Positions 18,253-36,556 of a stretch of 47,591 nucleotides of DNA are shown in pieces. Every line of letters begins with the position of its first letter. Within the stretch, counting starts at the first letter, position 1. The DNA is from Lampropedia hyalina DSM 16112 (GTDB taxonomy: Bacteria > Pseudomonadota > Gammaproteobacteria > Burkholderiales > Burkholderiaceae_C). A program made the translations under genes and the position numbers. The stretch spans positions 1 through 47,591 of the forward strand of contig NZ_FQUZ01000026.1 of assembly GCF_900129055.1 (NCBI RefSeq). The letters are read 5' to 3'. The notes below the pieces were generated by a model. The model saw nothing but the letters and a program-made list of their open reading frames with translations. It searched no databases and was not told where the DNA came from.

Positions 18253-21200
18253 TCAGGGCTTGAGCAGCCAGTTCTTGACACGGCGTTGCCATTGCTGGGG
18301 AATGGCACGGGCCACCGGACGCAACAGGGGCGCGGAACGCCACACGGTCAGCCGCTGCAAGGCCGCCTGGCGGGTGCGCTGCTCCCGCGTAGTTTCGCGC
18401 TCGCCTTCGCCCAGATGCCGACGGTGCTGGTGCACCACCTGTTCGCCACCGCGCTCCTCGCCGGTGCGCAGTTCGCCAGCCACCTGCCGCGCCAGCAGCG
18501 GGGCCACATAATCGCGTGCGTAGTCCCAGGCAGGCAGCAGAGCTGCATCCGGGGTATGACCGGTGGGCGGCACGGGCGGCTGGCCTTCAACGTAGTGCTG
18601 TGAGCGCACCCGCAGGAAGAAATCCAGCCATGCCTGCGTGGATGTGTCCCAGGGCTGCACCCAGGACCAGGGGCGGTGTTGCAGGCGTTCGGCAAAGGCC
18701 CCGAGATCGGGAGCCACCACCGGCAGCCCCGCCAGAAGGGCCGCGCTGAGCGTGTAGCTGTAGGTTTCCGGCCACTGCGCCGGGAACCAGACCAGATCGG
18801 GGGCGAGTCCGGCCAGGATGGCTGGCAGACGCGCCTCATCGTACTGGCCGTGGACGTGCAGACGGGTCTGCGGAACGGTCTGCAAATGCCGGTAGGCATA
18901 GCCCACCAGATGAAATTCCAGCGGCACCCCGTTCTGACTGGCCAGCCGCGCCACGTCTTCCAGCACATCCGCGCCCTTGATGATGCTCATGGCTCCGATG
19001 ATGGCAATGCGCAGGGGTGCATCGGCGGTCAGGCGACGCGGTGCGGGCAATGGCAATGGGGTGCGGGGATCGATGTCGGTGTGCACGGCCACGCGCACGT
19101 TCGCATCGGGGGCGAAGGCGCGGATGCGACGGGCGGTGTCCTGGCTGGGTGTGAGCACATGGCGCGCGCCACGCAACATGCGGCGGTTGCGCTCGCGCCA
19201 GGCCGCCGTGTCGGGTTCGACGGCGGGCGATGGCGGCGGATGCACGCCCCCACAGCATTCACCGTGGCCATCCAGCCCCAGGTAGCGGCCTGCCGTGCCG
19301 GTGAGGGTGATGTTGGTGCAGAAGCTGTAGAAGTCATGGGCGGTGAAGTCATAGGCCACGCCCAGTTGCTCGGGCAGGCTCCAGATGCAGTCCGGCTGGC
19401 CGATGAAGTGCTGATAGTGCACATGCGCCACACCCAGGGAGCGCAGAATGTCCACGAGCTTGCCCAAGTCCTCGGGCAGGTGGAAGTGCATCTGCCAGTT
19501 GGGCGATGGCGGGCAGGCGGGTGGCTGGTCGGGGTTGAGCATTTCCAGCACCACGTTCTGGTCGGACGAGGGCTTGAGGGTGAGGAACAGCACGCGCTCA
19601 CGCAAGTGCTGCGCCAGCTCATGGACGTGCCGGGTCGTGCCGCCGCCCCGGTTGTGCAGCACCGACAGCACCACCAGGCGTTGGTTCTGGCGGCTGTAAA
19701 GTACCCAGTCCACGGCAGCGCGGGCGGCGCGGGCCGGATCTTGCGGCAGGAAGGCATGGACATCGGCCTCGTAGCGCGGATGCAGGCGGCGCAGGGTTTC
19801 CATGGCGGCCTGTTCGCGCGGGCTTTTGTGCTCCCGGAAGCTCACGCCACCGGTGTGCAGCACAAAGCAGTCCAGCGCGTGCAGGTTGCGCCAGCCCTGA
19901 CGGATGGCACGCTGGCAGAAGTCGTTTTCCTCGCCATAACCCTTGCCGAAGTTCTCGACATCGAACAGCCCGACCTCACGCAAACAATCGCGCCGGATGT
20001 ACATGCAGAAGCCCACGCCGGTGGGCACTTCCACGCTCTGCCCGGCATTGACACTGGCAAAGATGGCATCCAGGCTGGCCGTGGTCTGGCCCGGCGGCAG
20101 CGGGTTGTCCTGGCAGAACAGCGGGTAGCTGCAAATGGTGGCATTGGTGGAGAAGGGCGTGACGGAGGCCACGTTCGCGCTGCTGTAGGCGGCCGCGCGG
20201 ATGCGGTCCAGCCAGTCGTTGGCCACCTCGGTGTCGCTGTTGAGCAGCAGCACGTCGTTGCTGCCGCTGTAGGCCATGCCGCGATTGACGGTGCCGACGA
20301 AGCCCAGGTTTTCGGCGTTTTCCAGCAGCGTCAGGCGCGGTTCGGCCTTGGCCTTGTCGCGCAGCCACTGGGTGACTTCGGGTTCGGGGCTGGCATCGTT
20401 GATGGCAATCAGGCGGCTGGCGGTGCGGTTGGTGCTGGCCAGCACCGATTCGACGCACAGCATGGTGTCGGCCAGCCCCCGGTAGATCGGCACGATGATG
20501 TCCACGGTGTCGCTGATGGGGTCGGGCACCGGCACTGCCACCGGGGTGGCCGCAACCATCGCAGTGGCAGCATCCGCCACAGGAGTGGCGGTCGGCAGTG
20601 CCGCCGTGGCACCATCGCCACGGCCTGCACTGACGGGGAAATCTTGCGGCAATTGCGGGTAGTGGGCTTTCTGCCCCAGCAGCCACTGCTTGGCGCGGAT
20701 GAACGGGCGAGAGTAGCGCAGCAGGCGCGAATTCTCCAGGTTGCGCAGATGCTCCAGCCAGCCATGGAGTTGGCCTTGTAGAAAGTCGCGGTGCTGGTTC
20801 AGCTCGCGGATGGTCTGGGCCTGCTGCTCCAGTTGCTGGCGCAGCACCTGCACGTCGTGCTGCTGGGTCGTGTGCTGCTGAAGCAGTTCGTGGCCCTGCC
20901 GGGATTCGGTGCGCAGTTGCTGCTCAAGCTGGCTTTGGATGCCACGCTGCTGTGCCAGCGTTTGCTGCACCTCGGCCAGGCGCGCCTGCTGGCTTTGTGC
21001 CAGGGCACGCACCCGCTCCAGCTCGCGGGCACGCTCCTGAATACGCCGCTCGGCCTGCTGCGTCAGGAACACCTGGTTCTTGAATGCCAGTTCACGCTGG
21101 TGCAGCTCGGCATCCAGCGTCTGGATGCGCAGTTGCAGGGCATCAATTTCCTCCTGGTACGCTGTTTCCTGGGACTGCCAGAGTGCCTCGGCCTGTTGCA

Positions 21201-22893
21201 GAACCTCGACGCGCTCCTGGGCACTGTGCTGCTGGTCACGCCAGTGTGCGATTTCCTGTTCCTGCTGTGTCACTTGGTTTTTCCGGTCGGTCAGTTCGGC
21301 TTGCAAATGGGCCATCTGTTCCTCGGCGTGGAGCCATTGTTCACGCCAGCGGGCAATGTCCTGTTCCTGCTGCTGCCCCAGCTCCTGCTGGCGAGCCAGG
21401 TCGGCTTGCAGGCTGTCGATGTGTTCCTGGGCATTGCGCTGGTGTGATTGCCAGCCCACAATGTCCTGCTCCTGCTGCTGCCCCCGCTCCTGCTGGCGAG
21501 CGAGTTCGGCTTGCAGGCTGTCGATGTGCTCCTGGGCATTGTGCAGGTGTGCCTGCCAGCCCTCCACCTCCTGCCCCTGCTGGGCCAGTGTGTGGTGCAG
21601 TTGGTCAAGCTGCTGTTGCAAGGCCTGTTTCTGCTCCCGCAGTGCCTGCCGCTCTTCCTGCAAAGGCCGTGCCATGTGTGCCAGTGCCAGATAATCGGCA
21701 GAGAAGGGCCAGCCCATTTCCACTTCCAGCGTGCAGGCGGCCCCTGCCCCCACCTGCCGCAACACGACATCGGGAATCGGCAGGTGCAGCCAGGGATCCT
21801 GCCCGGTCAGCAAGGCCACGGGTGGCCCTGCCAGAGCAGGCAATTGCGGGTTCCAGAGCAGATCGTGGTGGGGCTGTGCCTGCAACGGGGCAATGCCATC
21901 CTCGAATATGTCCCACCCCCACAGCCGCTGTCCACGGTCGTTGCACAGCCGGATGGCGTACAGGTGCAGAAAGCCCGGTCGGTCTGCCGGGTCCAGACGC
22001 AGGGTGCGCAGGTCTGCGGGCAGGCTCGAGAGGTCGAAGCGCAGGGTCTGCCGCCCCTTGCCGACAATGCCATGCCGGGTGAGCTTGTGGTCTTCGCAGC
22101 CGCCCTGGGCATCCAGCCAGTACAGCTGTGCCGTGAACAGGGCATCTTCCTGTGCCGCATGGTGCAGTGCGGTGAGCCAGCGGCTGTTGTCGGGTTCGCG
22201 GTCGGCAGGGCTGGCCGTGACGATGAACTGGTAGCTCAGGGCATCGGGCATGGCCAGGAAGTAGCGTGCCACGGCCGGTGGCAGGCGATCGAATTCCAGA
22301 TGAAACTCGGAATCGACCACCTGACGCTCGATCGTCTCCAGATGCTCCACCTGCCAATGCGCATCGGTGAGAAAACGCAGCAGCGAACGGCGCGTGAAGT
22401 GCCGCAGGTGGGTGGCATCCAGCAGCCCCTCCTCCCGGTAACGGAATTCGCCCAGCACCAGTTCGGCGGCCAGTCCGGCATAGCCGGTATTGGGAATGGA
22501 AATCAGCAGCTTGCCGCCCGGCTTGAGCAGGCGACGGATGGCCTGCAAGCTGTGCTGGGGCGTGCGCAAATGCTCCAACACATCGGCGCAGACGATGGCA
22601 TCGTACTGGCGCGGGGCAAAGAGCTGCGGCAGATCGGCAGTTTCCAGGTCGGCCACCACAACCTTGCGATAATAGGCGCGGGCCATCTCTGCTTCGCCGT
22701 GGTTGAGGGTCAGGCCATCGACACGACACTGCTTGCGCCGCGTCAGGTATTGCCCCAGGGCACCGCTGCCGCACCCCAGGTCGAGCACGTCCGAGTCTGC
22801 CGCGATGGTCTGCACCAGCACCAGAAGCGAGGTACGCTCACCTTCTTCGATGCGGCGGAAATAGATATGCTGGTCGCTTTGGGAAGTCATCAT
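18253..22893 (-). CDS. Multidomain methyltransferase / coiled-coil / GT2 / GT4 glycosyltransferase
   Basis: 1546 residues in one frame. Residues ~1-230 are a class I SAM methyltransferase (VLDLGCGSGALGQYL, VCADVLEHLRTP, GGKLLISIPN). Residues ~390-760 are Gln/Glu-rich coiled coil, including four 35-residue tandem units at ~435-552. Residues ~795-1060 are a GT2 domain (TVDIIVPIYRG, LLLNSDTEV, GYGEENDFCQRA). Residues ~1065-1470 are a GT4/GT-B domain (HNRGGGTTRHVHEL, IIGAMSIIKGADVLEDVARL). No membrane segment is evident. Such proteins build or cap surface polysaccharide, the coiled coil serving as a scaffold or length ruler. It diverges from the GT2 gene at 22956. The start at 22893 or 22890 is equivalent. 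Confidence 0.9.
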   Translation of the reverse strand: MMTSQSDQHIYFRRIEEGERTSLLVLVQTIAADSDVLDLGCGSGALGQYLTRRKQCRVDGLTLNHGEAEMARAYYRKVVVADLETADLPQLFAPRQYDAIVCADVLEHLRTPQHSLQAIRRLLKPGGKLLISIPNTGYAGLAAELVLGEFRYREEGLLDATHLRHFTRRSLLRFLTDAHWQVEHLETIERQVVDSEFHLEFDRLPPAVARYFLAMPDALSYQFIVTASPADREPDNSRWLTALHHAAQEDALFTAQLYWLDAQGGCEDHKLTRHGIVGKGRQTLRFDLSSLPADLRTLRLDPADRPGFLHLYAIRLCNDRGQRLWGWDIFEDGIAPLQAQPHHDLLWNPQLPALAGPPVALLTGQDPWLHLPIPDVVLRQVGAGAACTLEVEMGWPFSADYLALAHMARPLQEERQALREQKQALQQQLDQLHHTLAQQGQEVEGWQAHLHNAQEHIDSLQAELARQQERGQQQEQDIVGWQSHQRNAQEHIDSLQADLARQQELGQQQEQDIARWREQWLHAEEQMAHLQAELTDRKNQVTQQEQEIAHWRDQQHSAQERVEVLQQAEALWQSQETAYQEEIDALQLRIQTLDAELHQRELAFKNQVFLTQQAERRIQERARELERVRALAQSQQARLAEVQQTLAQQRGIQSQLEQQLRTESRQGHELLQQHTTQQHDVQVLRQQLEQQAQTIRELNQHRDFLQGQLHGWLEHLRNLENSRLLRYSRPFIRAKQWLLGQKAHYPQLPQDFPVSAGRGDGATAALPTATPVADAATAMVAATPVAVPVPDPISDTVDIIVPIYRGLADTMLCVESVLASTNRTASRLIAINDASPEPEVTQWLRDKAKAEPRLTLLENAENLGFVGTVNRGMAYSGSNDVLLLNSDTEVANDWLDRIRAAAYSSANVASVTPFSTNATICSYPLFCQDNPLPPGQTTASLDAIFASVNAGQSVEVPTGVGFCMYIRRDCLREVGLFDVENFGKGYGEENDFCQRAIRQGWRNLHALDCFVLHTGGVSFREHKSPREQAAMETLRRLHPRYEADVHAFLPQDPARAARAAVDWVLYSRQNQRLVVLSVLHNRGGGTTRHVHELAQHLRERVLFLTLKPSSDQNVVLEMLNPDQPPACPPSPNWQMHFHLPEDLGKLVDILRSLGVAHVHYQHFIGQPDCIWSLPEQLGVAYDFTAHDFYSFCTNITLTGTAGRYLGLDGHGECCGGVHPPPSPAVEPDTAAWRERNRRMLRGARHVLTPSQDTARRIRAFAPDANVRVAVHTDIDPRTPLPLPAPRRLTADAPLRIAIIGAMSIIKGADVLEDVARLASQNGVPLEFHLVGYAYRHLQTVPQTRLHVHGQYDEARLPAILAGLAPDLVWFPAQWPETYSYTLSAALLAGLPVVAPDLGAFAERLQHRPWSWVQPWDTSTQAWLDFFLRVRSQHYVEGQPPVPPTGHTPDAALLPAWDYARDYVAPLLARQVAGELRTGEERGGEQVVHQHRRHLGEGERETTREQRTRQAALQRLTVWRSAPLLRPVARAIPQQWQRRVKNWLLKP
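21241..21590 (-). repeat. 105-bp tandem repeats (four units) encoding coiled coil
   Basis: A motif beginning CCAG and carrying TCCTG.CCTGCTG recurs at 21241, 21346, 21451 and 21556, exactly 105 bp apart. The encoded unit is 35 residues (five heptads), with the core AQEHIDSLQA and ARQQE. The middle two units are nearly identical at DNA level and the outer two are more diverged. This could allow changes of repeat number between strains. Confidence 0.85.
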
Positions 22894-25237: not shown

Positions 25238-28200
25238 ATGTCTTTGTCTGGCTTGCTCGTACATGCGCACGATCGTATCCAATCGCAATTTACGCAACAG
25301 CAGGCGTTGATGCCATCAGGGGCAAGCTCCATCATCCTGTTTTTCTCCCTGTGTGACGGGCAAAGTCGTGCAGTGGTTCGGCACTATCGGGCCGACACGT
25401 TGGAAGCCGCTTGGCAACAAGCCGTTCAGAACACCCAACGCCTGGCCAGCCGGAACAAAAATGCCTTCAAATGGCTGCGTGTGGACTGGGTTCGTGAGAT
25501 ACAGCCAACGACCTGGCAAGACCTCAATGCCCTTTTGAAGCAAACCAAGCGCAACTACTTTCGCCTGGGCCTCGCCCTGGACGCCAAGCTTGACGTGGCA
25601 TTCCTGGAACAGGAACTCAACGCCAACGCCATGCTTTACCCCGGCTCCAACAAGGTGGAAGCCGGACTGAACCTGAATAATTTCACCGTTTACGCACGAC
25701 GGCGTTTTGGCAAGGAAGTCGTGCTGGACTTCTCGCCCGAAAACCCAGTTTACCTCTTTGCCCACGATGGCCTGTTCCTGTCCGATGACCCGCAACTGGC
25801 AGCCCTGCCTGAAGGCAATGGGCCCATTGCTCTGCCAGGCCCTGGCACCACGCAGGTGCATTGGCGTGACAGCGCATCTTTGAATGCCAGCCGCCGCCAG
25901 ATCAAGAGCCTGAACCCGGACCAGGTCTACACCCTGATCGACAGCAGTGCCAATTTTCTCGCCAGTCAAGTCCAACAGACTGGGCAATTCATCTACGGCC
26001 ATTTTCCCTGCTTCGGGCGCGAAATTCCCACCTATAACGCCTTGCGCCACGCCAGCTCGGTGTACTCCATGCTCGAAGGTTGGGAGCTGACACGCAACGA
26101 TGCGCTGCTGGCTGCCGTGCGCCGTTCACTCATCTACCTGACCGAAACCCTGATCCGCCACTATCCGCAGCCCGATGGCACCACCCTCGCCTACAACGTG
26201 GACATCAACGGCGAAATCAAGCTCGGGGCCAATGCCGTGAGCCTGCTGGCCTTGGTCAAGTACGACGAACTGACCGGCGACACCCGCTACCGCCCCCTGA
26301 TGGAACAACTGGCACTGGGCATTGGGCGCATGCAGAACGCAGAAAACGGCAGCTTCGTGCATGTGCTCCACAGCACAGACCTTTCGCTGAAAGAGACATT
26401 CCGCATCGTTTACTACGACGGTGAAGCCGCCTTCGGCCTGATGCGCCTGTACGGCCTGACCCGCGATGCGCGCTGGCTGAGCATCGTAGAACGGGCCTTT
26501 GACTATTTCATCCGTGCCGATCACTGGAAACACCACGACCACTGGCTGTCTTATTGCGCCAACGAGCTGACCCTGTACAAGCCGCAAGAAAAATACTTCC
26601 GCTTTGGTGTGCAGAACGTCGCAGGTTATCTGGACTTCATCCTCAAGCGCGAGACCACTTACCCCACGCTGCTGGAGCTGTCCATGGCCTTCGAAGCCAT
26701 GCTCGGCCGCATCGAGACCAATCACCCTGAAATGCGCCATGTGCTCGAAGGCCTGGACATCGACAAGTTCCATCGTGCACTGCACCACCGCGCCCACTAC
26801 CTGCTCAATGGCTTCTTCTGGCCAGAGTTCGCCATGTACTTTGCCAAGCCAGAAAGCATTCTGGGCAGCTTCTTCATCCGCCACCATACCTTCCGGGTGC
26901 GCATCGATGACATCGAACATTACCTTTCGGGGTATGTGGCGTACTGGAAGATGCTGAAAAAAACGGCATCAATCAGCCCACCACCCACCCCAGAGCCTGG
27001 GGGAGATCAGGTCACGAATACCTTGCCGGCTGCGAACTCCGTCGCGGTTTCCGCTCCAGCCCCATCCAGACCCGTGGTCGCCTGGGGGGGCGATGTCAAT
27101 CTGGGTCGCCGTCAGCACTACCGCACCGCCGAACTGGGCCCTGCCAATGTATTGCCCATTCCCGCATTGAAAGACGCAGACCTCAGCATCGTCAATCTGG
27201 AATGTGTCGTCGCCACGCAAGGAGAACAAGGCATCAACAAGGGCGAAGGCGGCCCCTACTACTATCGCGCCCGTCCTGAAATGCTTCAGATTCTGCTCGA
27301 GTCCCATATCGACGTGGTGACAACGGCCAACAATCACAGCGGCGACTACGGGCCTGATGCGTTGCTGGAACAAGGTGCCTGGCTCGATGCCATCGGTATT
27401 GGCCATGCCGGCACAGGAGCACATCGGGAAGCCGCATTGACCCCTGTGCTGCGACGTGCGGGAGAGCTGAACATCGCCATCTTCTCCATCGATGCGACAC
27501 AGCACCGTTATGCCGCCACCGATCGCAGGCCTGGCTCTGCCTATCTCCCCCTCCATGATGCCGCAGCCTGGCATGCCGAATTCGCACCACGCATTACCGC
27601 CATTCGCCAGCGCGCGCACATCGTACTGGTGGCGGTTCACTGGGGGGAAAACCTGGCCACCATGCCGGATGCGGCTGAAATCGCCGTGGGCCACAGCCTG
27701 ATCGATGCAGGTGCCGATGCCGTGCTGGGTGCCTCGGCCCACGTATTGCAAGGCATCGAAATCTATCGTGATCGGCCCATCATTCATGACGCAGGCGATC
27801 TGCTGTTCGATTCGGTACGCAGCACCCTGGGCGACAGCGGCATCTTCCGCCTGGAACTGAGCCATCATGGTGTGGAACGCATCGTTTTCGTACCGATTGG
27901 CATCGGCTTCGGATTCTCCGAGCAACTGTCTGGCCAAGCAGCACAAACTGCCGTTCGCAACTATGCCATTCAGTGCGCTGCCACCGCAAGCCAACTGATT
28001 CCGACGGCAGATGGCTGCGGCTATATCGAACTGACACCACCTGCCCGCCCATTCCTCAGAAAAATACCTGCACCCCAGGCCACCTGCTCTCCGGAAATAC
28101 TCTCTGCTCCAATCTACCCCGAACTGGAAACCCATCAAAACTGGACAATAGACACCATTCCAGCCGATGCACGCATGGAACCATGCAAACTGGGGCCACT

Positions 28201-31200
28201 GACCCTGTTGGGATGCCGAGTCAGCCCCACCACCATCGACCGACGCAGAATGCTGTGGGTGGAAAGCTTCTGGTGTTGCGACGATGCAGTTCAGGAAGAC
28301 ATACGCCTGGATTTCCGCGCCGTACCCCAAAGCCCAACCCGGATGAAACCGTGGGGCATCAGCATGGACCACGATCCATGCGACTGGCTGATGCCCACCT
28401 CGCGCTGGAAGCCCGGCACCATTTACCGTGACTACTATGGCCTGCGCCCACCATATCTGAAGGATTGGGAAAACGTTGATCTGCAAGTCAGCGTCAAAAT
28501 TGTTTCAGCCATATACCCTACCCAACCGGTGTGGCTGCCATGGACTGTGCAACTGGCAGTGCCAGGCAAAAATCAAACCGCATCTTCATCCCTCAACGCT
28601 CAAGATGAAAAACCAGCTCGATATTCATTCTCTTCTTCAGAATTGGAAAAATTAACCCACGGACATTGGGAATACCCTCCAGAAAAAGAAATTTATCTGG
28701 ACTACTTTGTTACAGGGGCAGGCTTCGTCAAAGAACCACGCACTTGCATGGTGTGCATGTTTTATGAAACCTGGCTAAAAGGAACTGGCAACTCTGGCCA
28801 TTACAAAAATATTTTTTCAGATAGCCACATTTCTTTTCTGAATCAATACAACAAAGCAAATTTAAAAGAAAACGTAAACTGTCTTGTTGTACAACGGCCC
28901 ATACCAGAACTCTCTCATATTCCACAGCTTGTGGTAAAAGACAGTTATCAGATATTGAAAACATTGGCAACAGCCGCACGCAACAAAATGGCCGATAACG
29001 GCACCATTTTTGCCGTAACAGGTGCTGTAGGAAAATCAACAACTTGTGACTTACTGACCCGTGCAATCCGCCCCTTCAGCAATTGCATTGCCATGACCAA
29101 TGGCCATAACTCAAGGACAGGCGTGGTAATCTGGACTGCAAGTCTTGGCATGTTTGATCCTGCGTTCAATCAAGAAAACAACCTTCCAAATACCTGCATT
29201 CTGGAAGTGGCCGGCTCCGCACTCTGGATGAAAAGCGGTTGGGCCATGCAGGCAGTACGCCCCAACATCGCCATCATCACCCACATTGAACTCACCCAAT
29301 ATGGTGCCAGCTCAAAGAGCATAGAGGATGTGGCGTACTTCAAATCCAGAATATGCGAAACCATCTATCCTGATGGCAAAGCCGTCCTGTACCGAGAAAT
29401 GCCTTTGTACGACAAGGTGCTTGAGTATGTCAAAAACTACGGTGCAACGCCCTGCTCCTATGGCGAAAGCCCAGACGCAGACGCCCGCCTGCTTTCATAC
29501 CATTTCAACCTGCCGACCATCGACCAGCAACAAACCGATCTGACGATGAGCGTAAAGGCCAACATCCTCGGCGAGGAAGTTTCATACGATGTGGGAGCCA
29601 TAGGCAAACCCGTTGCGCTCAACTCCCTGGCCGCCCTGACAGCAGCCAAGCTGGCCGGTTTCGACATTCAAGCTTCAGCCAAAGCACTGGAAGACTTCAA
29701 AGCCCGAGACAATACACTGGCAATATCCACGCACAACAATGTACTGGTCGTGGACTGTTCCCACAACCTCGAAATACCTTCTATTCTTGCAGCATTCGAT
29801 GTCTTGAAGCAGAGTGAATTTTCGAAAAATGGCAGACGTATTGTCATCATGAGTCGCATCGTGAACATGGGAAATATTGCCACAGACTTCCACCTGAAGC
29901 TCGAGGAGCCTTTCAATAGTTATGGTTTTGACAAATTCTTCATCCACAACCCAAACCACGAATGGGACAAACTGCTTCCAAAATTACCAGAGGGCTTGGT
30001 AGGTGGTGTATCAACAGATGCCAAAGGCACTGTCAGCCAATTTATGGAATATGTACAGGAAGGTGATTCAGTTTTACTACTGGGTGCCAGTAGAGGATGT
30101 GATTTTGGCGAGGTTCTCCCCAATATTTTAAAAAAACTGAAAGAAAATTTTCAGAAAATTCAGTATAAAAAATCAGCTCCAACTGCGACACTCGTCAGCA
30201 TCCGAGGCAAGGTGCAGGGAGTCGGTTACAGAAACTGGGCACGTAGGAATGCAAAATTACGCGCTTTAAGCGGTTGGGTCTGCAACCAAAATGACGGCTC
30301 AGTGCAGATGCTACTGGCTGGTGATTCTGATGCAATAAGCGATATGCTGGCAGAATGTCGCAAAGGACCGGATGAAAGTAACGTAATTGAAGTAAAAACC
30401 GAAAGCTGGTCAGGCCCATTAACAGATGGTTTTGAAATTATCAACAAGAACCCTTCAAATCCAGCAATGGATAAAAATATGAAGCAATCTGATATCACAG
30501 CAACATCCTCCGATCTTATTTTTCACGAAATCAAAATACCAGCCTGCCTTAAAGGACAACAAAATGGCAAAGTGGACGCCCGCTTGCTCGAAGAAATTCG
30601 TGGAGGTTTTTTATTGGCACCTGCAGCAAAAAAATGGAATGAAATGCGACATTCCGCATTCCTGGATGGTGTGGTCTTGATGCCTGTCAACGCTGACAGC
30701 ACATACCGTAACTTGACACAACAGGAAAAAATATTTCTAGCATGCCATGATCCTTGTGAGCCATCAAATGCGGCTATTCAATGGAATGACCGTCACTGGT
30801 CACTGAAGAAAAACCTTGCCTTAGCCGCCATACCAGGCACCAGCAATCACGGCTGGGGCTTATCCATCGATGTACGGCTTACTTTTTATGGCAGGGAAAA
30901 AGATTGGCTACTGGATCACGCGCCAATTTTTGGATTTTGTTGGGAGTATGAATCCGAACCTTGGCACATCACCTATTTTCCTGGAGATAAAGTAACTCGC
31001 TTTTGGTCTGCTCATGGCATTGAACAAGCTACCCCTGGAACATGGCTGACAAAACCAAAATCTCACTTTCTGGCAAAACGGATTGTGGCTTTGACTCCAG
31101 ATTATCAACCAGGTGACGTAGTCGTTCTTGCAAACGGCACTTCGGGCTTAGGAATTCAACCAGATGATCTTGTCAAGCTGCCCGCGCCACCAGCAGCCAT

Positions 31201-32413
31201 CATTACGTCATTGGAACACGACAATATACCCGAACCTCTGACATCAAAGGCAACGCCGATCTATCAAGTCAAAAGCAGCAAAACCGCTTTATACCATCTT
31301 GCTCATTTCAGTCGATCTCAATTCAAGGGAAAATTAATTGGAATCACTGGAACATCTGGAAAAACCAGCACGACAAGCATGCTTTTCAAGGCACTTCTGG
31401 ATCTAGAAAAAGACACCCAGATCAGCAGGGGAGGCAATGTATCTGCTGCCATTGCGAAAAGTTTACGCGGAATGCCATGGGACGCTGACTTCTATGTCGT
31501 GGAAATAGAGCAATCCACCATCGATATCAGCAGCCTGGTGGCACGCCCGGATGTGGCCATCATTACAAGTATCGGGCCTGGGCACTTGGAGAAGCATAAA
31601 AACACGATTGGCGTTGCCAAAAGAAAAGCGATGATTTTTGATGGCATGGCAGACGGTAGCATAGCGATCATTTGCCATGACACAGAACATTCAGACATTC
31701 TGATCAACAAGGCAAAAGACCAAAGGCTTCGTATTTATACCTATGGCCAGCATACAGATGCAACAATTCGCTTATTGAATTGGGATGAGGCAGAGCAACA
31801 GGCATTGGTTGCCACTCCAGTCGGTTCATTGCATTTTCACATGCCAGTTGAAGGACTGCATATGGTACAGAATGCAATGGCCTGCATCGCCACGGCACTG
31901 GCTCTTGAATTGGATGCGGAAAAACTGGTCAAAAGCTTCAGCACTTTCAAACCTGTCAAAGGCAGAGGCGTCGTGCATGTGTTGCAACGTGACAATGGCG
32001 GTTCATTCACCGTCATTGATGAGAGTTATAACGCCAACCCCCTGTCCATGAAAGCCGCGATTGACGCATCCAATGCCCGGTTCAGAAATGGCGAATACCA
32101 ACGGCATGTCCTGATTCTGGGAGACATGCTGGAATTGGGCGCAGATGAAGTGGCCTACCATGCTGCACTGGCAGATGCGCTGAAGAAACAGCCTGCCGAT
32201 GTGCTGGTGCTGTGCGGCCCTCTGATGGCCCACCTTGCTGCGAAGCTGCGTGAGTCCGGGTCCTCTTGTGTGATAGAGGCTTTTCAGTCCGTGGAACAAG
32301 TCATCGAATGGACTGAAGCGCACCTGCACGATGGGGATTTGGTGCTCGTGAAAAGCTCCAATGGCACCGGGCTGCACCGTCTGGTGGAGGAGTTGGTGCG
32401 CAAGGGCAAATGA
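25238..32413 (+). CDS. Giant fusion: (alpha/alpha)6-like, CapA/PgsA, Mur ligase, acylphosphatase, M15 peptidase, MurF-like ligase
   Basis: 2391 residues, ATG at 25238 with AAAGGA. Order: ~1-240 unassigned; ~245-585 helical repeats suggesting an (alpha/alpha)6 toroid; ~610-900 CapA/PgsA phosphoesterase (D619 in GGDVNLGR, N653-L-E655, N699-H700, H801-W-G, H835 in SAHV); ~920-1200 unassigned; ~1240-1640 Mur ligase (TGAVGKSTT, K1266; DCSHNLE); ~1650-1740 acylphosphatase (R1665 in GKVQGVGYR, N1683 in GWVCN); ~1770-1920 M15 peptidase (H1871 and D1878 in SNHGWGLSID; E1907-P-W-H1910); ~1925-2391 MurF-like ligase (TGTSGKTST, K2042; DESYNANP at 2261). No signal peptide or membrane helix is seen. CapA plus a Mur ligase recalls poly-gamma-glutamate synthesis (PgsA/PgsB), but the overall architecture is unfamiliar. 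Inference: it builds and trims a peptide or amino-acid decoration of a surface polymer. Confidence 0.85.
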   Translation: MSLSGLLVHAHDRIQSQFTQQQALMPSGASSIILFFSLCDGQSRAVVRHYRADTLEAAWQQAVQNTQRLASRNKNAFKWLRVDWVREIQPTTWQDLNALLKQTKRNYFRLGLALDAKLDVAFLEQELNANAMLYPGSNKVEAGLNLNNFTVYARRRFGKEVVLDFSPENPVYLFAHDGLFLSDDPQLAALPEGNGPIALPGPGTTQVHWRDSASLNASRRQIKSLNPDQVYTLIDSSANFLASQVQQTGQFIYGHFPCFGREIPTYNALRHASSVYSMLEGWELTRNDALLAAVRRSLIYLTETLIRHYPQPDGTTLAYNVDINGEIKLGANAVSLLALVKYDELTGDTRYRPLMEQLALGIGRMQNAENGSFVHVLHSTDLSLKETFRIVYYDGEAAFGLMRLYGLTRDARWLSIVERAFDYFIRADHWKHHDHWLSYCANELTLYKPQEKYFRFGVQNVAGYLDFILKRETTYPTLLELSMAFEAMLGRIETNHPEMRHVLEGLDIDKFHRALHHRAHYLLNGFFWPEFAMYFAKPESILGSFFIRHHTFRVRIDDIEHYLSGYVAYWKMLKKTASISPPPTPEPGGDQVTNTLPAANSVAVSAPAPSRPVVAWGGDVNLGRRQHYRTAELGPANVLPIPALKDADLSIVNLECVVATQGEQGINKGEGGPYYYRARPEMLQILLESHIDVVTTANNHSGDYGPDALLEQGAWLDAIGIGHAGTGAHREAALTPVLRRAGELNIAIFSIDATQHRYAATDRRPGSAYLPLHDAAAWHAEFAPRITAIRQRAHIVLVAVHWGENLATMPDAAEIAVGHSLIDAGADAVLGASAHVLQGIEIYRDRPIIHDAGDLLFDSVRSTLGDSGIFRLELSHHGVERIVFVPIGIGFGFSEQLSGQAAQTAVRNYAIQCAATASQLIPTADGCGYIELTPPARPFLRKIPAPQATCSPEILSAPIYPELETHQNWTIDTIPADARMEPCKLGPLTLLGCRVSPTTIDRRRMLWVESFWCCDDAVQEDIRLDFRAVPQSPTRMKPWGISMDHDPCDWLMPTSRWKPGTIYRDYYGLRPPYLKDWENVDLQVSVKIVSAIYPTQPVWLPWTVQLAVPGKNQTASSSLNAQDEKPARYSFSSSELEKLTHGHWEYPPEKEIYLDYFVTGAGFVKEPRTCMVCMFYETWLKGTGNSGHYKNIFSDSHISFLNQYNKANLKENVNCLVVQRPIPELSHIPQLVVKDSYQILKTLATAARNKMADNGTIFAVTGAVGKSTTCDLLTRAIRPFSNCIAMTNGHNSRTGVVIWTASLGMFDPAFNQENNLPNTCILEVAGSALWMKSGWAMQAVRPNIAIITHIELTQYGASSKSIEDVAYFKSRICETIYPDGKAVLYREMPLYDKVLEYVKNYGATPCSYGESPDADARLLSYHFNLPTIDQQQTDLTMSVKANILGEEVSYDVGAIGKPVALNSLAALTAAKLAGFDIQASAKALEDFKARDNTLAISTHNNVLVVDCSHNLEIPSILAAFDVLKQSEFSKNGRRIVIMSRIVNMGNIATDFHLKLEEPFNSYGFDKFFIHNPNHEWDKLLPKLPEGLVGGVSTDAKGTVSQFMEYVQEGDSVLLLGASRGCDFGEVLPNILKKLKENFQKIQYKKSAPTATLVSIRGKVQGVGYRNWARRNAKLRALSGWVCNQNDGSVQMLLAGDSDAISDMLAECRKGPDESNVIEVKTESWSGPLTDGFEIINKNPSNPAMDKNMKQSDITATSSDLIFHEIKIPACLKGQQNGKVDARLLEEIRGGFLLAPAAKKWNEMRHSAFLDGVVLMPVNADSTYRNLTQQEKIFLACHDPCEPSNAAIQWNDRHWSLKKNLALAAIPGTSNHGWGLSIDVRLTFYGREKDWLLDHAPIFGFCWEYESEPWHITYFPGDKVTRFWSAHGIEQATPGTWLTKPKSHFLAKRIVALTPDYQPGDVVVLANGTSGLGIQPDDLVKLPAPPAAIITSLEHDNIPEPLTSKATPIYQVKSSKTALYHLAHFSRSQFKGKLIGITGTSGKTSTTSMLFKALLDLEKDTQISRGGNVSAAIAKSLRGMPWDADFYVVEIEQSTIDISSLVARPDVAIITSIGPGHLEKHKNTIGVAKRKAMIFDGMADGSIAIICHDTEHSDILINKAKDQRLRIYTYGQHTDATIRLLNWDEAEQQALVATPVGSLHFHMPVEGLHMVQNAMACIATALALELDAEKLVKSFSTFKPVKGRGVVHVLQRDNGGSFTVIDESYNANPLSMKAAIDASNARFRNGEYQRHVLILGDMLELGADEVAYHAALADALKKQPADVLVLCGPLMAHLAAKLRESGSSCVIEAFQSVEQVIEWTEAHLHDGDLVLVKSSNGTGLHRLVEELVRKGK

Positions 32414-33372
32414 CAACGAAGATTGCACCGATTGGCGCAGCCAAGCTGTGTATGGGCATCGTCAGCCTTGGGCTTGCACTGTGGTGCCTGCCGGCACAGG
32501 CTGCCGAGTGCCAGCGCGCGCTGCGGCCACTGGCAGGCGACTGGAGCGAACACCGCAGTGGCGAGTTCATCTTCCAGTACTCGCTGACGGGTGAACATGC
32601 CCTGCATTCCTCCGTCGATACACCCGATTCGGGCCTGCCGGATGTGGTCGCGGATGTGGAGCAGCAATTGCTGGCCATGCGGGAGATGCTCAAAAGCCTG
32701 CACTTCCAGTTGCCGCTGGAAAGCCCTCGCTACCAAACCCAAGGGGCCAGCCACATTCTGGTGCTTTTCCAGAAACTGAAAAAGACGGGTCTTGCCTTTG
32801 ATGAGGTCAGCCGTCTGCCCTCAGGGGAATGTGTGTTGATGATTCAGATTGCCAGCCATTACCGCAGCGGCAATCTGACTCCGGCGCATGAACTGTTCCA
32901 CCAGGTGCAGAACGGCTACACGCCGTTCAAGCGTGCGTGGTTTTACGAGGGCACGGCCCGCTGGTCCGAAACGCTGCTGGGCCAGCGCAAGGCGGTTGCG
33001 CAGCCGGTTCCAGCCCATGCACTGGATTTGCGGGCATTCTGGCAACAGTCCTATGCAGCGGTTGCGGTCTGGCATGGCTTGATTAAGCGTTGCAGCAGGA
33101 CTGCCGCACCGGCAGAGATTCCGGCTGCCGTGCGCAGTCTGCGCTACCGCAACGGCACGCCGGTGTTGCAGGACGACCAGATTCCGGGCCATGATTACAT
33201 GCGCCGCGTTCTGGAGGCCCTGAAGGTTCTGGGCGACGAGACCACGGTCAAACAAAAGCTGACAACGCACCACTGGCCGGAGAAGGTGCAGCGGGATGCA
33301 CAGCACGATGCCGCCATGTGGCGTGCGGTCTTGAGTGCCTGCCAGCCCGGTGAAGGAAGCTCTGCACCCTGA
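32410..33372 (+). CDS. Secreted putative zinc metallopeptidase-like protein (HExxH)
   Basis: 320 residues, with its ATG overlapping the TGA of the giant gene (ATGA), so it is very likely co-translated. The N-terminus is a signal peptide (GIVSLGLALWCLPAQA). The key motif is H160-E-L-F-H164 (HELFHQVQNGY), with E180 in FYEGTARWSE at a gluzincin-like distance, the pattern of peptidase MA-type zincins. No exact family was recognised. It should act in the periplasm or outside. Coupling to the giant protein suggests a shared pathway, perhaps cleaving the polymer or a crosslink. Catalytic activity is inferred from the motif only. Confidence 0.7.
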   Translation: MTTKIAPIGAAKLCMGIVSLGLALWCLPAQAAECQRALRPLAGDWSEHRSGEFIFQYSLTGEHALHSSVDTPDSGLPDVVADVEQQLLAMREMLKSLHFQLPLESPRYQTQGASHILVLFQKLKKTGLAFDEVSRLPSGECVLMIQIASHYRSGNLTPAHELFHQVQNGYTPFKRAWFYEGTARWSETLLGQRKAVAQPVPAHALDLRAFWQQSYAAVAVWHGLIKRCSRTAAPAEIPAAVRSLRYRNGTPVLQDDQIPGHDYMRRVLEALKVLGDETTVKQKLTTHHWPEKVQRDAQHDAAMWRAVLSACQPGEGSSAP

Positions 33373-33581: not shown

Positions 33582-36359
33582 TCATGCCGCATTCGTGCCA
33601 AACAAGGTTTGCCACAGCACCGGGCCGGCCTGCTGCCAGGGCTGCCCGGACTGGGGCACGATGGGTTCGTGTTCATTGAGGCGGGCGTTGTGCTGGATGC
33701 GGCGCATTTCGCGGTAGGCGTTGGCGGCTGCGTGGCCGATGCCAGCGGGCAGCAGGCCAGCGTCTTCGGCCATCTGGAGCAGGGCGATGTTGCCGGCATT
33801 GCGCACCAGTTGCGGGTATTGGCCTGACCAGGCCAGCACGAGGTACTGGGTGGCGAATTCGATGTCGATCATGCCACCGGGACTGTGTTTGACGTCGAAT
33901 TCGCCGGCCTTGACCGGGTGGGCCTGGCGCATGCGCTGGCGCATGGTGCAGATTTCCTGCGCCAGCAGGGCGTGGTCGCGGGGGGACTGGATGACGGCCT
34001 GGCGCACGGTATCGAACTCGCTGCGCAGATGCGGGTTGCCGAGTACGAAGCGGGCGCGGGTCATGGCCTGATGCTCCCACGTCCACGCGGTGTTGCTGCC
34101 GCGCTGCTGCTGGTAGTTGGCATAGGCCGCAAAGCCGGTGACGAGCAGGCCGGAGTTGCCATTGGGGCGCAGTGCAGTGTCGATTTCGTAGAGGTCGCCT
34201 TCGGCGGTCTTGGTGGTGAGCCACGAGATGAGCTTGCGCACCAGGTTGCCATAGACCACGGGCGCGTCATCGTCGTCATCGTCGAAGACGAACACGATGT
34301 CCAGATCGCTGCCGTAGCCCAGCTCCAGCCCGCCGAGTTTGCCGTAGCCGATGATGGCGAACTGGGGGGTGTCGCGGTGTTTCTTGCGCAGGTGCTGCCA
34401 GCACCAGGCGGTGGTGGTTTCCAGCACCGCATCGGCCAGCGCGCTGAGGTCGTCGGCTACCTGTTCCACGCTGATGGAGCCATTGACATCCCGCGCCAGG
34501 GTGCGGAAGACTTCGCCGTGGTGGGCACGGCGCAGCAGGTTCATGAGGCTTTCCTCGTCGGCCTCGCCGGTGCTTTGCAGCGCGGTGTGCCGCCGCTCCA
34601 GTTCCTGCTGGAAGGTGGCGCGGTCGAAGCGGTCGCTGAAGATGGAGCCGCTGGCCAGTTCGTCGATGACGGCAGGATGCCGCTGCATGTAGCGCAGTGG
34701 CCAGCGGGCCGCACCCAGCAGGTGCAGCAGGCGGTCGTGGACGATGGGGCGTTCGAGCAGCAGCGCAAAGTAGGTTTCGCGCCCCAGCATGGTTTCCAGC
34801 CAGTCGGCAAAGCGGCAGGCTCCTTCCAGCGTGGCAGTGCCCTGGGCCAGATGCTGGCCGGTGAGCAGCAGGATTTTCAGGACGCGTGCGCTGGCTTCGT
34901 CACGCAGCCCCAGAAAGCGCGGCGAGTCCTGCCATGCCCGCAGATGCTGGGCAAAGTCGGGTGGCACCTGCTCCAGCAATTGCGCCAGCGAGGTGGGCAT
35001 GGCGTGTTTGCGGCTGCATTGTCCGCCGGTGCAGCGGCGTGGCGCATTGCCGCCCAGCAGGCTGTCGAATTCCTGCGCCACCCGTTCGCGGTGCTGGTCA
35101 AGTTCGCGCAAAAAATGCGCGGTGTCACCAAAACCCAGCGTGGCGGCAATCCATTGCAGGTCGTCGTCGCGCACGGGCAGGATGTGGGTCTGCTGGTCGT
35201 CGAGGTACTGGATGCGGTGTTCCACACGGCGCAGAAACAGGTAGGCATCGGCCAGGCTGGTGGCGGTGGCTTCATCCATCAGCCCGGCGTGGGTCAGGCG
35301 GCGCAGGGCTTCGAGCGTGGGGCGGCAGCGCAGTTCGGGGAAGTGCCCGCCGCGCACCACTTGCAGCAGTTGCACGGTGAATTCAATTTCGCGGATACCG
35401 CCGCGCGAGAGCTTGACATCGTTGGCGCGCTCAGGGCGGCCCGCGCTGCGGGTGTTGGCATGGTCGCGGATTTGCCGGTGCAGATTGCGCAGGGCATCGA
35501 ACACGGCATAGTCCAGGTAGCGGCGGAAGACGAAGGGCAACACCACTTCGCGCAGTTTCTGCACGCCGGGGAAGGCGTAGCCCGACCCCGGAGCATCCGC
35601 CTCGTCCCTGTGCGGATGAACGGTGCCAGTAGAAGCCACCACCCGGCTCTTGAGCCAGGCAAAGCGTTCCCACTCGCGCCCGTGTGCGACAAAATACTCG
35701 GCCAGTGCCTGCAAGGAAACGGCAGGCGGGCCGGAATTGCCGTGCGGGCGCAGGGCCAGGTCCATGCGGAAAACGAAGCCGTGTTCGGTGGTGTCGCCGA
35801 TCAGCGTCTGGATGCGCCGCACCAGCAGGCCGAAGTATTCGTGGTTGGAGATGCGCCCGCGCCCCTGGGCGTTGCCGCTGGTTTCGCCATCTTTTTCATA
35901 GACGTAGATCAGGTCGATGTCGCTGGAGACGTTCAGCTCCCGCGCCCCGAGCTTGCCCATGCCGATGACCCACAGGGCCACGGGCTGGCCGTGTGCATCC
36001 TGTGCCCGTCCGTGCCGCTCCAGCAGACTGGCTTGGGCCTCTTGGCAGGCGGCATCGAGTGCCAGTTCGGCCAGCACGGTCATGGGGCCGGTGATGTCGC
36101 GCAGGCTGGCCTGGCCTTCGGTGTCCAGCTCCACCAGCCGGTGCAGCACCAGTTGGCGCAGAATGCGCAGGGCCGCGCCCAGCTCGTACTGAGGGCGCAA
36201 CTGCGCCAGCGTGGCGGCCATGCGGCTGCGGTCGGGCACACCTGCTGGCAGCAAATGCAGCTCTGCCGCATAACGCCGCGCCAGCCGCTGGAAGAAACGC
36301 GAATAGGCCGCCGTGGCTGGCACGACCGCAGAAGAAAGCACAACGGAACTGGAAGGCAT
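33582..36359 (-). CDS. glnE: Bifunctional glutamine synthetase adenylyltransferase / adenylyl-removing enzyme
   Basis: 925 residues from the ATG at 36359, which has GGAG at fitting distance; the frame extends upstream to a GTG. It has two nucleotidyltransferase domains. The N-terminal deadenylylase has GMGKLGARELNVSSDIDLIY, and the C-terminal adenylylase has GYGKLGGLELGYGSDLDIVF. The helical regulatory region lies between them. It adds AMP to glutamine synthetase, or removes it, in response to PII and PII-UMP (see glnB at 17425) and glutamine. Its 197-bp divergent spacer with the yhdP-type gene should hold promoters for both. Confidence 0.96.
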   Translation of the reverse strand: MPSSSVVLSSAVVPATAAYSRFFQRLARRYAAELHLLPAGVPDRSRMAATLAQLRPQYELGAALRILRQLVLHRLVELDTEGQASLRDITGPMTVLAELALDAACQEAQASLLERHGRAQDAHGQPVALWVIGMGKLGARELNVSSDIDLIYVYEKDGETSGNAQGRGRISNHEYFGLLVRRIQTLIGDTTEHGFVFRMDLALRPHGNSGPPAVSLQALAEYFVAHGREWERFAWLKSRVVASTGTVHPHRDEADAPGSGYAFPGVQKLREVVLPFVFRRYLDYAVFDALRNLHRQIRDHANTRSAGRPERANDVKLSRGGIREIEFTVQLLQVVRGGHFPELRCRPTLEALRRLTHAGLMDEATATSLADAYLFLRRVEHRIQYLDDQQTHILPVRDDDLQWIAATLGFGDTAHFLRELDQHRERVAQEFDSLLGGNAPRRCTGGQCSRKHAMPTSLAQLLEQVPPDFAQHLRAWQDSPRFLGLRDEASARVLKILLLTGQHLAQGTATLEGACRFADWLETMLGRETYFALLLERPIVHDRLLHLLGAARWPLRYMQRHPAVIDELASGSIFSDRFDRATFQQELERRHTALQSTGEADEESLMNLLRRAHHGEVFRTLARDVNGSISVEQVADDLSALADAVLETTTAWCWQHLRKKHRDTPQFAIIGYGKLGGLELGYGSDLDIVFVFDDDDDDAPVVYGNLVRKLISWLTTKTAEGDLYEIDTALRPNGNSGLLVTGFAAYANYQQQRGSNTAWTWEHQAMTRARFVLGNPHLRSEFDTVRQAVIQSPRDHALLAQEICTMRQRMRQAHPVKAGEFDVKHSPGGMIDIEFATQYLVLAWSGQYPQLVRNAGNIALLQMAEDAGLLPAGIGHAAANAYREMRRIQHNARLNEHEPIVPQSGQPWQQAGPVLWQTLFGTNAA

Positions 36360-36556
36360 GGCGGGAACTCCGACGAACTCAATATGCGCCAAGTGTACTG
36401 CGCAGAAGGTTCTCGCGTAAAAGGCCACTACAGTCCCTGTGCCCGGCAGAGGTTGCCTTGAGGAAACGCTCGTTCCCTTGAGCGACGGAAGGCGTGCCGG
36501 ATAATGCAGGCCGCCCGTTCACCTCACCACCCGCTCCGATTCATCCCCCCTCCCGC

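Follow-up and report, generated by a model that had tools for sequence, protein, structure and literature searches.

What does a bacterial protein do that joins a helical toroid, a CapA domain, two Mur ligases, an acylphosphatase and an M15 peptidase in one chain? Such a protein is encoded on the forward strand of contig NZ_FQUZ01000026.1 of Lampropedia hyalina DSM 16112, whose 47,591 nucleotides, the entire contig, are the stretch of DNA analyzed here (the window). A first-pass annotation, made from the sequence alone, had suggested one polypeptide that both loads amino acids or peptides onto a carrier and edits them. That outline fits our findings; the attachment was deduced, as it is here, from the domains, and the carrier had been left unnamed. 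We propose a carrier: the protein is probably a cytoplasmic modifier of surface proteins with aspartate-dipeptide repeats, whose Mur ligases would join amino acids or peptides to aspartate side chains and which would have trimming built in. Co-occurrence, gene order, intact motifs and fold were observed, and from them we infer the chemistry. More than the fusion itself, what is new is the family of its N-terminal toroid, here called TOR, which the fusion brings to light.

TOR genes accompany aspartate-dipeptide-repeat surface proteins

One scan of 84,980 species genomes yielded 79 TOR loci (loci are numbered L, genomes G and contigs of the window's genome, G000, C). In many groups the neighbors of TOR are a type-1 exporter (ABC, HlyD and OEP components) and BapA-type adhesins with long (DA)n, (DS)n, DADSDN or SDSDED stretches; the BapA_N protein of an Agrobacterium locus (L078) holds about 680 residues of such repeat. 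Six of the 17 fetched family or class loci share the same-strand order repeat adhesin, TOR (with or without CapA and Mur), ABC and HlyD, and OEP comes next in three of the six. Pfam scans were made of chosen proteins, and neighbors in most loci are labeled by similarity to a few scanned representatives.

Plasmid TOR records were sampled as well, 17 of 54 being fetched and picked for spread. In Listeria, a gene for an LPXTG protein with (DA)n is followed by TOR; on a Staphylococcus aureus plasmid, the gene order is wall-type protein with (DADADS)n, TOR, Mur ligase. Staphylococcus simulans and Staphylococcus haemolyticus have a surface protein, TOR and a Mur ligase in stretches that contain repeat runs, and in S. 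haemolyticus a gene annotated pls precedes TOR and the Mur ligase. In two Enterococcus records, the distance between TOR and a repeat run is 575 and 830 bases. Since wall-anchored proteins of Listeria and Staphylococcus are found with TOR too, the repeat association is independent of the exporter, and a link to type-1 secretion as such was rejected on this ground.

The same arrangements bear on the idea that TOR lacks catalytic activity and serves in the cytosol as a chaperone or export adaptor that shields long acidic repeats or keeps them unfolded, with the fused enzymes as passengers in cell-wall metabolism. TOR directly adjoins exporter genes in many loci, as this idea would predict, but it also occurs with wall-anchored Gram-positive proteins, its linked Mur domains lie outside the housekeeping-type MurF clade and its conservation looks catalytic (see below); we consider the idea decidedly unlikely. 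A link to LapG/LapD adhesin release was also rejected, the window's genome having no LapG match. LapG does lie near TOR in L062 (by Pfam) and, by similarity to that protein, in L037, L058 and L059.

Runs of at least eight Asp-x dipeptides, (Dx)8+, lay within the fetched flank of 53 of 111 TOR stretches and in 31 of 47 groups, counted in frames of at least 80 residues whose gene status was assumed; the groups are script-cut names rather than taxa, one place is present twice (L017 and L162) and some family genomes are apparently doubled (e.g., L148/L033, L150/L041, L151/L056 and L159/L055). We then compared 399 genomes of the window's family using a D[A/S]x4 codon pattern that leaves out the AGY codons of serine and is not tied to coding frames. 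More than 20 matches, a cut-off set after the numbers had been seen, occurred in 11 of 15 TOR-positive versus 3 of 384 TOR-negative genomes (Fisher p 5e-16), and at least one match in 14 of 15 versus 137 of 384 (p 8e-6). The backward control exceeded 20 matches in none of the 15 TOR-positive genomes and in 7 of the 384 TOR-negative ones. The TOR-negative, repeat-rich genomes G683 and G691 are both among those seven and are therefore repeat-rich in general; G789, also TOR-negative, had exactly 20 D[A/S]x4 matches. Because the genomes of a family are related, TOR states were also permuted within the six genera, among nine TOR-positive ones, that hold both states, and the observed assignment was the most extreme of 120,000. 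Across the class, TOR was present in 3 of 369 genomes, the window's own included, which is too rare for an association test. We regard the association of TOR with aspartate-dipeptide-repeat surface proteins as well supported.

Two sets of loci have further features. In Rhizobiaceae (L091, L092, L093 and L097), partnerless TOR genes lie less than 2 kb from almost pure Asp-Gly (DG)n runs in putative frames. In Sulfitobacter (L168 and L180), a TOR-Mur gene stands between condensation-domain genes and a (DA)n gene with a BapA prefix, with a polyketide synthase gene beyond.

The partner enzyme varies with repeat chemistry

After removal of L017 (the same place as L162) from the 53 repeat-positive stretches, 52 repeat loci could be sorted by the partner of TOR. 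A glycosyltransferase (GT), fused to TOR or next to it, was the partner in 5 (by Pfam in L016, L166 and L088; by similarity in L089 and L098), a Mur ligase in 34 and CapA only in 1 (L075); in the remaining 12 there was no Mur, CapA or GT match in the TOR frame and no Mur or GT match within 3 kb. Serine occupied a fraction of 0.62-0.99 of the x positions in the five GT loci, against a median of 0.01 in the 34 Mur loci (p 2e-4 by locus; 8e-4 over 3 versus 18 genus groups), in a comparison that was chosen after the numbers had been seen and left out L075 and the 12 partnerless loci. The contrast recurs within a genus: G001 has TOR-GT2 and 71% Ser (n 31), whereas G000 has TOR-Mur and Ala/Gly repeats. 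Within one genus, three genomes have an additional TOR-Mur gene at a type-1 secretion locus, with Ala repeats in two cases and (SD)n in the third.

That Mur goes with Ala-rich and GT with Ser-rich repeats suggests that both enzymes act on the repeat itself. The pattern is what one would expect if serine were glycosylated and hydroxyl-free repeats were modified through the aspartate carboxylate, by Mur chemistry.

TOR is a toroid with enzyme-like conservation

An AlphaFold2 model of TOR (residues 1-600, on a 40-sequence alignment) is a confident (alpha/alpha) toroid, with a mean predicted local distance difference test (pLDDT) of 93 and a predicted template modeling score (pTM) of 0.91. Its top Foldseek matches are likewise (alpha/alpha) toroids (glucose and cellobiose 2-epimerases, GH76 and GH105) at E values of about 1e-6 to 1e-4 and 9-15% identity, which bears out the helical toroid that the first-pass annotation had placed at the N terminus. 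Over 15 divergent rows, 54 TOR columns are invariant, and invariant residues include E396, D434, H435, D557 and D558 of the window protein; because 36 of the 54 are charged, polar, Tyr or Trp, TOR looks like an enzyme and not just a scaffold.

These invariant residues and the 2-epimerase/GH-like fold, along with the 12 of 52 repeat loci that lack a Mur, CapA or GT partner and the recurrence of DD-carboxypeptidases, speak for an alternative in which TOR performs the essential repeat chemistry (e.g., epimerization, isomerization or a sugar-related reaction) and Mur, CapA and M15 make a distinct peptide or sugar-peptide that is attached to another part of the adhesin or tethers it to the wall. 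We find it rather unlikely, given that the pairing of Mur mostly with Ala-rich and GT with Ser-rich repeats suggests action of both on the repeat.

Two TOR proteins (L165 8776-10434 and L170 8932-10548) are annotated as ‘poly(glycerol-phosphate) alpha-glucosyltransferase’. Pfam found no GT domain in the Listeria TOR carrying that annotation, and the label was probably propagated from TOR-GT4 fusions such as L166.

Two Mur ligases outside the housekeeping-type MurF clade

In the whole-protein Pfam scan, Mur_ligase_M matched two stretches (best 2036-2220, E 2.9e-47) and Mur_ligase_C matched at 2255-2374 (E 1.2e-21). Scanned alone, the second ligase (Mur2) matched both families, and the first (Mur1) matched Mur_ligase_M at 52.8 bits (cut-off 24). 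The nearest NCBIfam models of both are MurF-type; TIGR01143, with a cut-off of 288.6 bits, gave 119 for Mur1 and 237.7 for Mur2, and the whole-protein score of 346.4 bits is a sum over the two. Both P-loops are intact: Mur2 has GTSGKT and DESYNANP, and Mur1 has GAVGKST but DCSHN. A structure model of the Mur1-containing segment (pLDDT 82, pTM 0.64) matched MurF structures (4qf5, E 9e-31, template modeling score by target 0.86), in line, for Mur1, with the Mur fold first claimed from sequence. Mur1 also gave weak sequence matches to cyanophycin synthetase.

In a 41-row Mur tree, the eight rows taken as housekeeping MurF formed a 100/100 clade that included neither Mur1 nor Mur2. Mur1 paired instead with the Mur that L020 joins to CapA, and Mur2 with the one that L062 joins to M15, both at 100/100. 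The window's genome has a separate MurF-like gene on contig C22.

CapA, acylphosphatase and M15 domains

Solved structures matched by the CapA domain comprise only three near-identical sequences (8gq9, 8gqb and 8ith), deposited as poly-gamma-glutamate synthesis protein; the best, 8gq9 (E 5e-15), we take to be the MslH epimerase. Against the NCBIfam model epimerase_MslH, a lasso-peptide epimerase, the domain scored 72.3 bits, far under the cut-off of 700. The acylphosphatase domain has the motifs GYR and CNQNDG, which in this family supply the catalytic Arg and Asn. In the M15 domain, SNHGWGLSID and ESEPWH can be read, the zinc-ligand pattern of M15/VanY peptidases being H...D ... E..H; its best solved-structure match is weak (E 0.04). 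A simple scan of the fusion found no membrane-span-like hydrophobic segment or signal (best 19-residue hydropathy 1.32), and action in the cytoplasm, where ATP is, is therefore expected.

Poly-gamma-glutamate systems include CapA and Mur-type ligases, a comparison that had been drawn at the outset, and with the weak matches of Mur1 to cyanophycin synthetase these domains could point to a poly-gamma-glutamate or cyanophycin-like polymer synthase, in which the Murs polymerize amino acids and CapA handles the polymer. The CapA domain is real, but the evidence leads to aspartate-dipeptide-repeat proteins, which are made by the ribosome. CapC/PgsC (PF14102) had no match in G000, while Bacillus subtilis matched among 14 control genomes, and no ATP-grasp domain was matched by Pfam in the fusion protein. 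We consider such a synthase extremely improbable and, given CapA without a CapC/PgsC match in G000, rejected poly-gamma-glutamate synthesis.

Assembly and surroundings of the fusion gene

The fusion is one frame from an ATG start, with no internal stop and no unknown base, as first described. All Pfam domain matches of the whole protein exceed the curated cut-offs, and CapA, both Mur ligases, acylphosphatase and M15 thus stand as previously named; we add a conserved beta-rich segment between CapA and Mur1 (Table 1).

Table 1. Positions in the window of the fusion gene, its domains and nearby features
Feature	Positions	Strand	Details
Methyltransferase + GT2 + GT4 frame	18253-22893	-	1546 residues
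Fusion gene TOR-CapA-beta segment-Mur1-acylphosphatase-M15-Mur2	25238-32413	+	2391 residues; open reading frame and Pfam
TOR, N-terminal (alpha/alpha) toroid	25238-26992	+	residues ~1-585; without Pfam family; module tracking aspartate-dipeptide repeats
CapA / PGA_cap (PF09587)	27077-27811	+	residues 614-858; Pfam E 6.9e-54
Beta-rich conserved segment after CapA	27875-28567	+	residues ~880-1110; no Pfam match
Mur1, first Mur ligase	28805-30157	+	residues ~1190-1640; P-loop GAVGKST, DCSHN; no Pfam C-domain match
Acylphosphatase (PF00708)	30197-30439	+	residues 1654-1734; Pfam E 9.9e-21
M15/VanY peptidase	30620-30982	+	residues 1795-1915; Pfam E 9.5e-12; SNHGWGLSID and EPWH in sequence
Mur2, MurF-like ligase	31001-32410	+	residues 1922-2391; P-loop GTSGKT, DESYNANP
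Protein with HELFH motif and signal-peptide-like N-terminus	32410-33372	+	320 residues; NCBIfam MXAN_6640_HExxH E 2.7e-9, below cut-off
glnE	33582-36428	-	
tRNA-Ala(tgc) call by ARAGORN	34347-34437	+	antisense inside glnE; probably false

TOR occurs alone (about 565 residues), with Mur, with CapA-Mur (about 1600 residues) and with CapA and two Murs (about 2100 residues; L021, L026 and L067). It is also fused to GT2 in L016 and GT4 in L018 and L166, to ATP-grasp-M15-Mur in L062 and, in a second L021 copy, to CapA-Mur and an S11 DD-carboxypeptidase. DD-carboxypeptidases thus recur with TOR-linked Murs (M15 in L062, S11 in L021), and acylphosphatase is found near TOR loci at the C terminus of an ATP-grasp protein (L095) or as small proteins (L022). 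A search for homologs of the same domain order had been suggested; these partial architectures are what the loci examined have, and among them the complete order occurred in the window's genome only. L020 (TOR-CapA-Mur1) and L062 (TOR-ATPgrasp-M15-Mur2) look like two halves of the window protein. When the C-terminal third was searched in 10 genomes of the genus at E <= 1e-40, it matched only the window's own genome, apart from the Mur2 part in G003; no viral contig matched its peptide patterns.

The G+C content falls along the gene, from 0.57-0.61 over TOR and CapA to 0.45-0.50 from Mur1 to Mur2, and since the remainder of the window stands at 0.656, the gene seems to have been either acquired or recently fused. 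The drop agrees with recent assembly from modules. Together with the absence of the full order from every other locus examined and the partition of its parts between L020 and L062, this shift could also mean that two genes of the TOR family were joined by accident, in assembly or by fusion, and that the extra domains do not function together. However, the frame has neither a stop nor an unknown base, the P-loops and the M15 and acylphosphatase signatures are intact, and two-Mur relatives of about 2100 residues exist; we judge an accident very improbable.

The start codon of the 320-residue HELFH gene overlaps the stop codon of the fusion gene, and relatives of its product adjoin TOR genes elsewhere. 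Upstream, on the opposite strand, the methyltransferase-GT2-GT4 frame is a possible surface-glycan or adhesin-glycosylation gene.

Other loci extend the range of architectures: in L022 (5362-12013, Magnetococcales), two multi-ATP-grasp proteins and two short acylphosphatase proteins come after TOR-CapA-Mur; L174 (8986-13968, Agrobacterium) has TOR within a 1660-residue protein whose other two-thirds match no module tested by similarity; and L069 (486-19805, Selenomonadales) is a row of many TOR, CapA, Mur and M15 genes, one of its proteins having two TOR domains.

Repeat proteins in the window's genome

The D[A/S] pattern had 55 matches in G000, on contigs C1, C5 and C57, and the control had 0. 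In the sequenced runs of the C5 repeat protein, the x positions are 61% Ala, 35% Gly and 3% Ser (n 205); contig-end pieces of repeat protein are present on C1 and C57. A BapA_N domain lies on C3, and LapB-type exporter genes stand beside a very large adhesin-like frame on C24 (L107 11347-19996). The likely substrates in this genome are the (DA/DG)n proteins on C1, C5 and C57. Two adjacent frames on C1 (L120 1277-5433) have similar C-terminal domains (FVEYLYQSILVR...), which follow (DA)n in one frame and a different tandem repeat in the other.

A proposed mechanism and the points that weigh against it

In the mechanism we propose, TOR would bind the repeat region, and probably itself act on it, before the adhesin leaves the cytoplasm. 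Both Mur ligases would convert carboxylates to acyl phosphates and couple these to amino acids or short peptides; as neither (DA)n nor (DG)n offers a hydroxyl for glycosylation, aspartate beta-carboxyls are the simplest target. The acylphosphatase would edit by hydrolyzing stray acyl phosphates, the M15 domain would trim the added peptide, and CapA, whose relatives include a lasso-peptide epimerase, may alter stereochemistry. Release of the adhesin through the type-1 exporter would follow, and the secreted HExxH protein may act outside on the adhesin or its partners. The recurrence of M15 and S11 DD-carboxypeptidases beside Murs hints at side chains resembling stem peptides.

A bolder proposal, tentative enough that it may well prove wrong, extends this to a widespread, undescribed system in which peptidoglycan-type ligases (Mur and ATP-grasp) and DD-carboxypeptidases, guided by a new family of toroid enzymes, would equip the Asp residues of ribosomally synthesized (Asp-X)n surface proteins with amino-acid or peptide side chains, akin to a genetically encoded cyanophycin or a murein on a protein backbone. 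The window protein would be its most compressed form, uniting ligation, editing, trimming and possibly epimerization.

Several observations weigh against modification of repeats by Mur ligation. At the window locus itself, neither a repeat protein nor an exporter adjoins the fusion gene on the contig; those of G000 lie on other contigs, the window being the whole of its own. In the closest relatives by sequence (L020, L058, L059, L062 and L063), whose contigs are short, the fetched flank is free of (Dx)8 runs, and L015 and L020, the latter a close relative, have LLGEDG-type repeats in place of aspartate dipeptides. A repeat was found in the flank of 0 of 24 Variovorax loci, and runs are also absent from the flanks of 5 of 13 Microbulbifer loci and of those from G031, Acinetobacter, Halomonas, Magnetococcales, Celeribacter, Xenophilus, Brucella, Desulfovibrio, Paramesorhizobium, Rickettsiales and both Selenomonads. 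That the codon pattern is not tied to coding frames counts on the same side. The 12 partnerless repeat loci indicate that Mur ligation is not universal, and the rule linking partner to repeat has exceptions: TOR-Mur loci with high serine fractions (L152 0.96, L037 0.47, L164 0.39, L147 and L162 0.32) and L075, with TOR-CapA, no Mur and a fraction of 0.94. Concerning the ligases, Mur1 scanned alone has no Pfam match to Mur_ligase_C and carries TQY where the usual AHL histidine would stand, one TOR-Mur (L157) has a degenerate P-loop, and neither Mur domain alone attains the TIGR01143 cut-off. The last point leaves the reading unaffected, since a true MurF was never required.

Significance and comparison with known systems

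The literature searched, which left most subscription journals outside, held no paper joining CapA, Mur ligase and acylphosphatase, or Mur ligase, adhesin and type I secretion, and the TOR family is undescribed in it; the earlier statement that this assembly had no description is not contradicted. Adhesins with aspartate-dipeptide repeats occur in soil, marine and human-associated bacteria, and a TOR family that spans phyla offers a handle on the fate of (DA)n repeats. TOR-Mur systems suggest that Mur ligases left cell-wall synthesis and became protein modifiers. Two database names can also be corrected, that of some plasmid TOR proteins as glucosyltransferases and ‘Mur ligase family protein’ for TOR-Mur fusions.

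Several modules have a nearest known counterpart. TOR shares its fold class with AGE-type 2-epimerases and the GH76 and GH105/GH88 toroids, to which the Listeria TOR has sub-threshold Pfam matches, but at 9-15% identity it belongs to none of these families by sequence. The fusion's CapA domain matches the MslH lasso-peptide epimerase and the CapA family, among solved structures (8gq9) and by NCBIfam model, but scores far under the MslH cut-off. MurF, the UDP-MurNAc-tripeptide:D-Ala-D-Ala ligase, is the nearest named family of both ligases, Mur2 keeping its P-loop and DESYNANP; they differ from it in their sub-cut-off scores and their position outside the housekeeping-type clade. The Mur-like domain of cyanophycin synthetase, which Mur1 weakly matches, carries out ATP-dependent ligation to the aspartate beta-carboxyls of a peptide backbone, and so resembles the reaction proposed here. 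Its backbone is made by the enzyme's own ATP-grasp domain, whereas the aspartate backbone here would be ribosomal, and the fusion has the Mur match without ATP-grasp.

Among aspartate-dipeptide repeats, to our knowledge, only Ser-Asp repeats have a known modification. In Staphylococcus, as the available parts of two reports describe, SdgA and SdgB glycosylate SD repeats (PMC3794999) and glycosyltransferases are encoded beside SD-repeat genes in the SesJ paper (PMC7029136). SdgA/SdgB and GtfC/GtfD resemble TOR systems in being dedicated enzymes encoded beside adhesins with alternating Asp dipeptide repeats; they are glycosyltransferases that act on Ser, whereas TOR systems combine a toroid family with Mur ligases and mostly Ser-poor repeats. 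BapA of Paracoccus denitrificans shares its repeat type with the adhesins beside TOR genes: it has 891 Asp-Ala repeats, is a predicted type-1 secretion substrate and is required for biofilm, and its slow gel migration led the authors to say that post-translational modification could not be excluded, although the accessible part of that account names no modifying enzyme (PMC5588039). As read here, the proposed system would be a new form of a known kind, the dedicated modification of aspartate-dipeptide-repeat adhesins, with a substantial chance of new chemistry.

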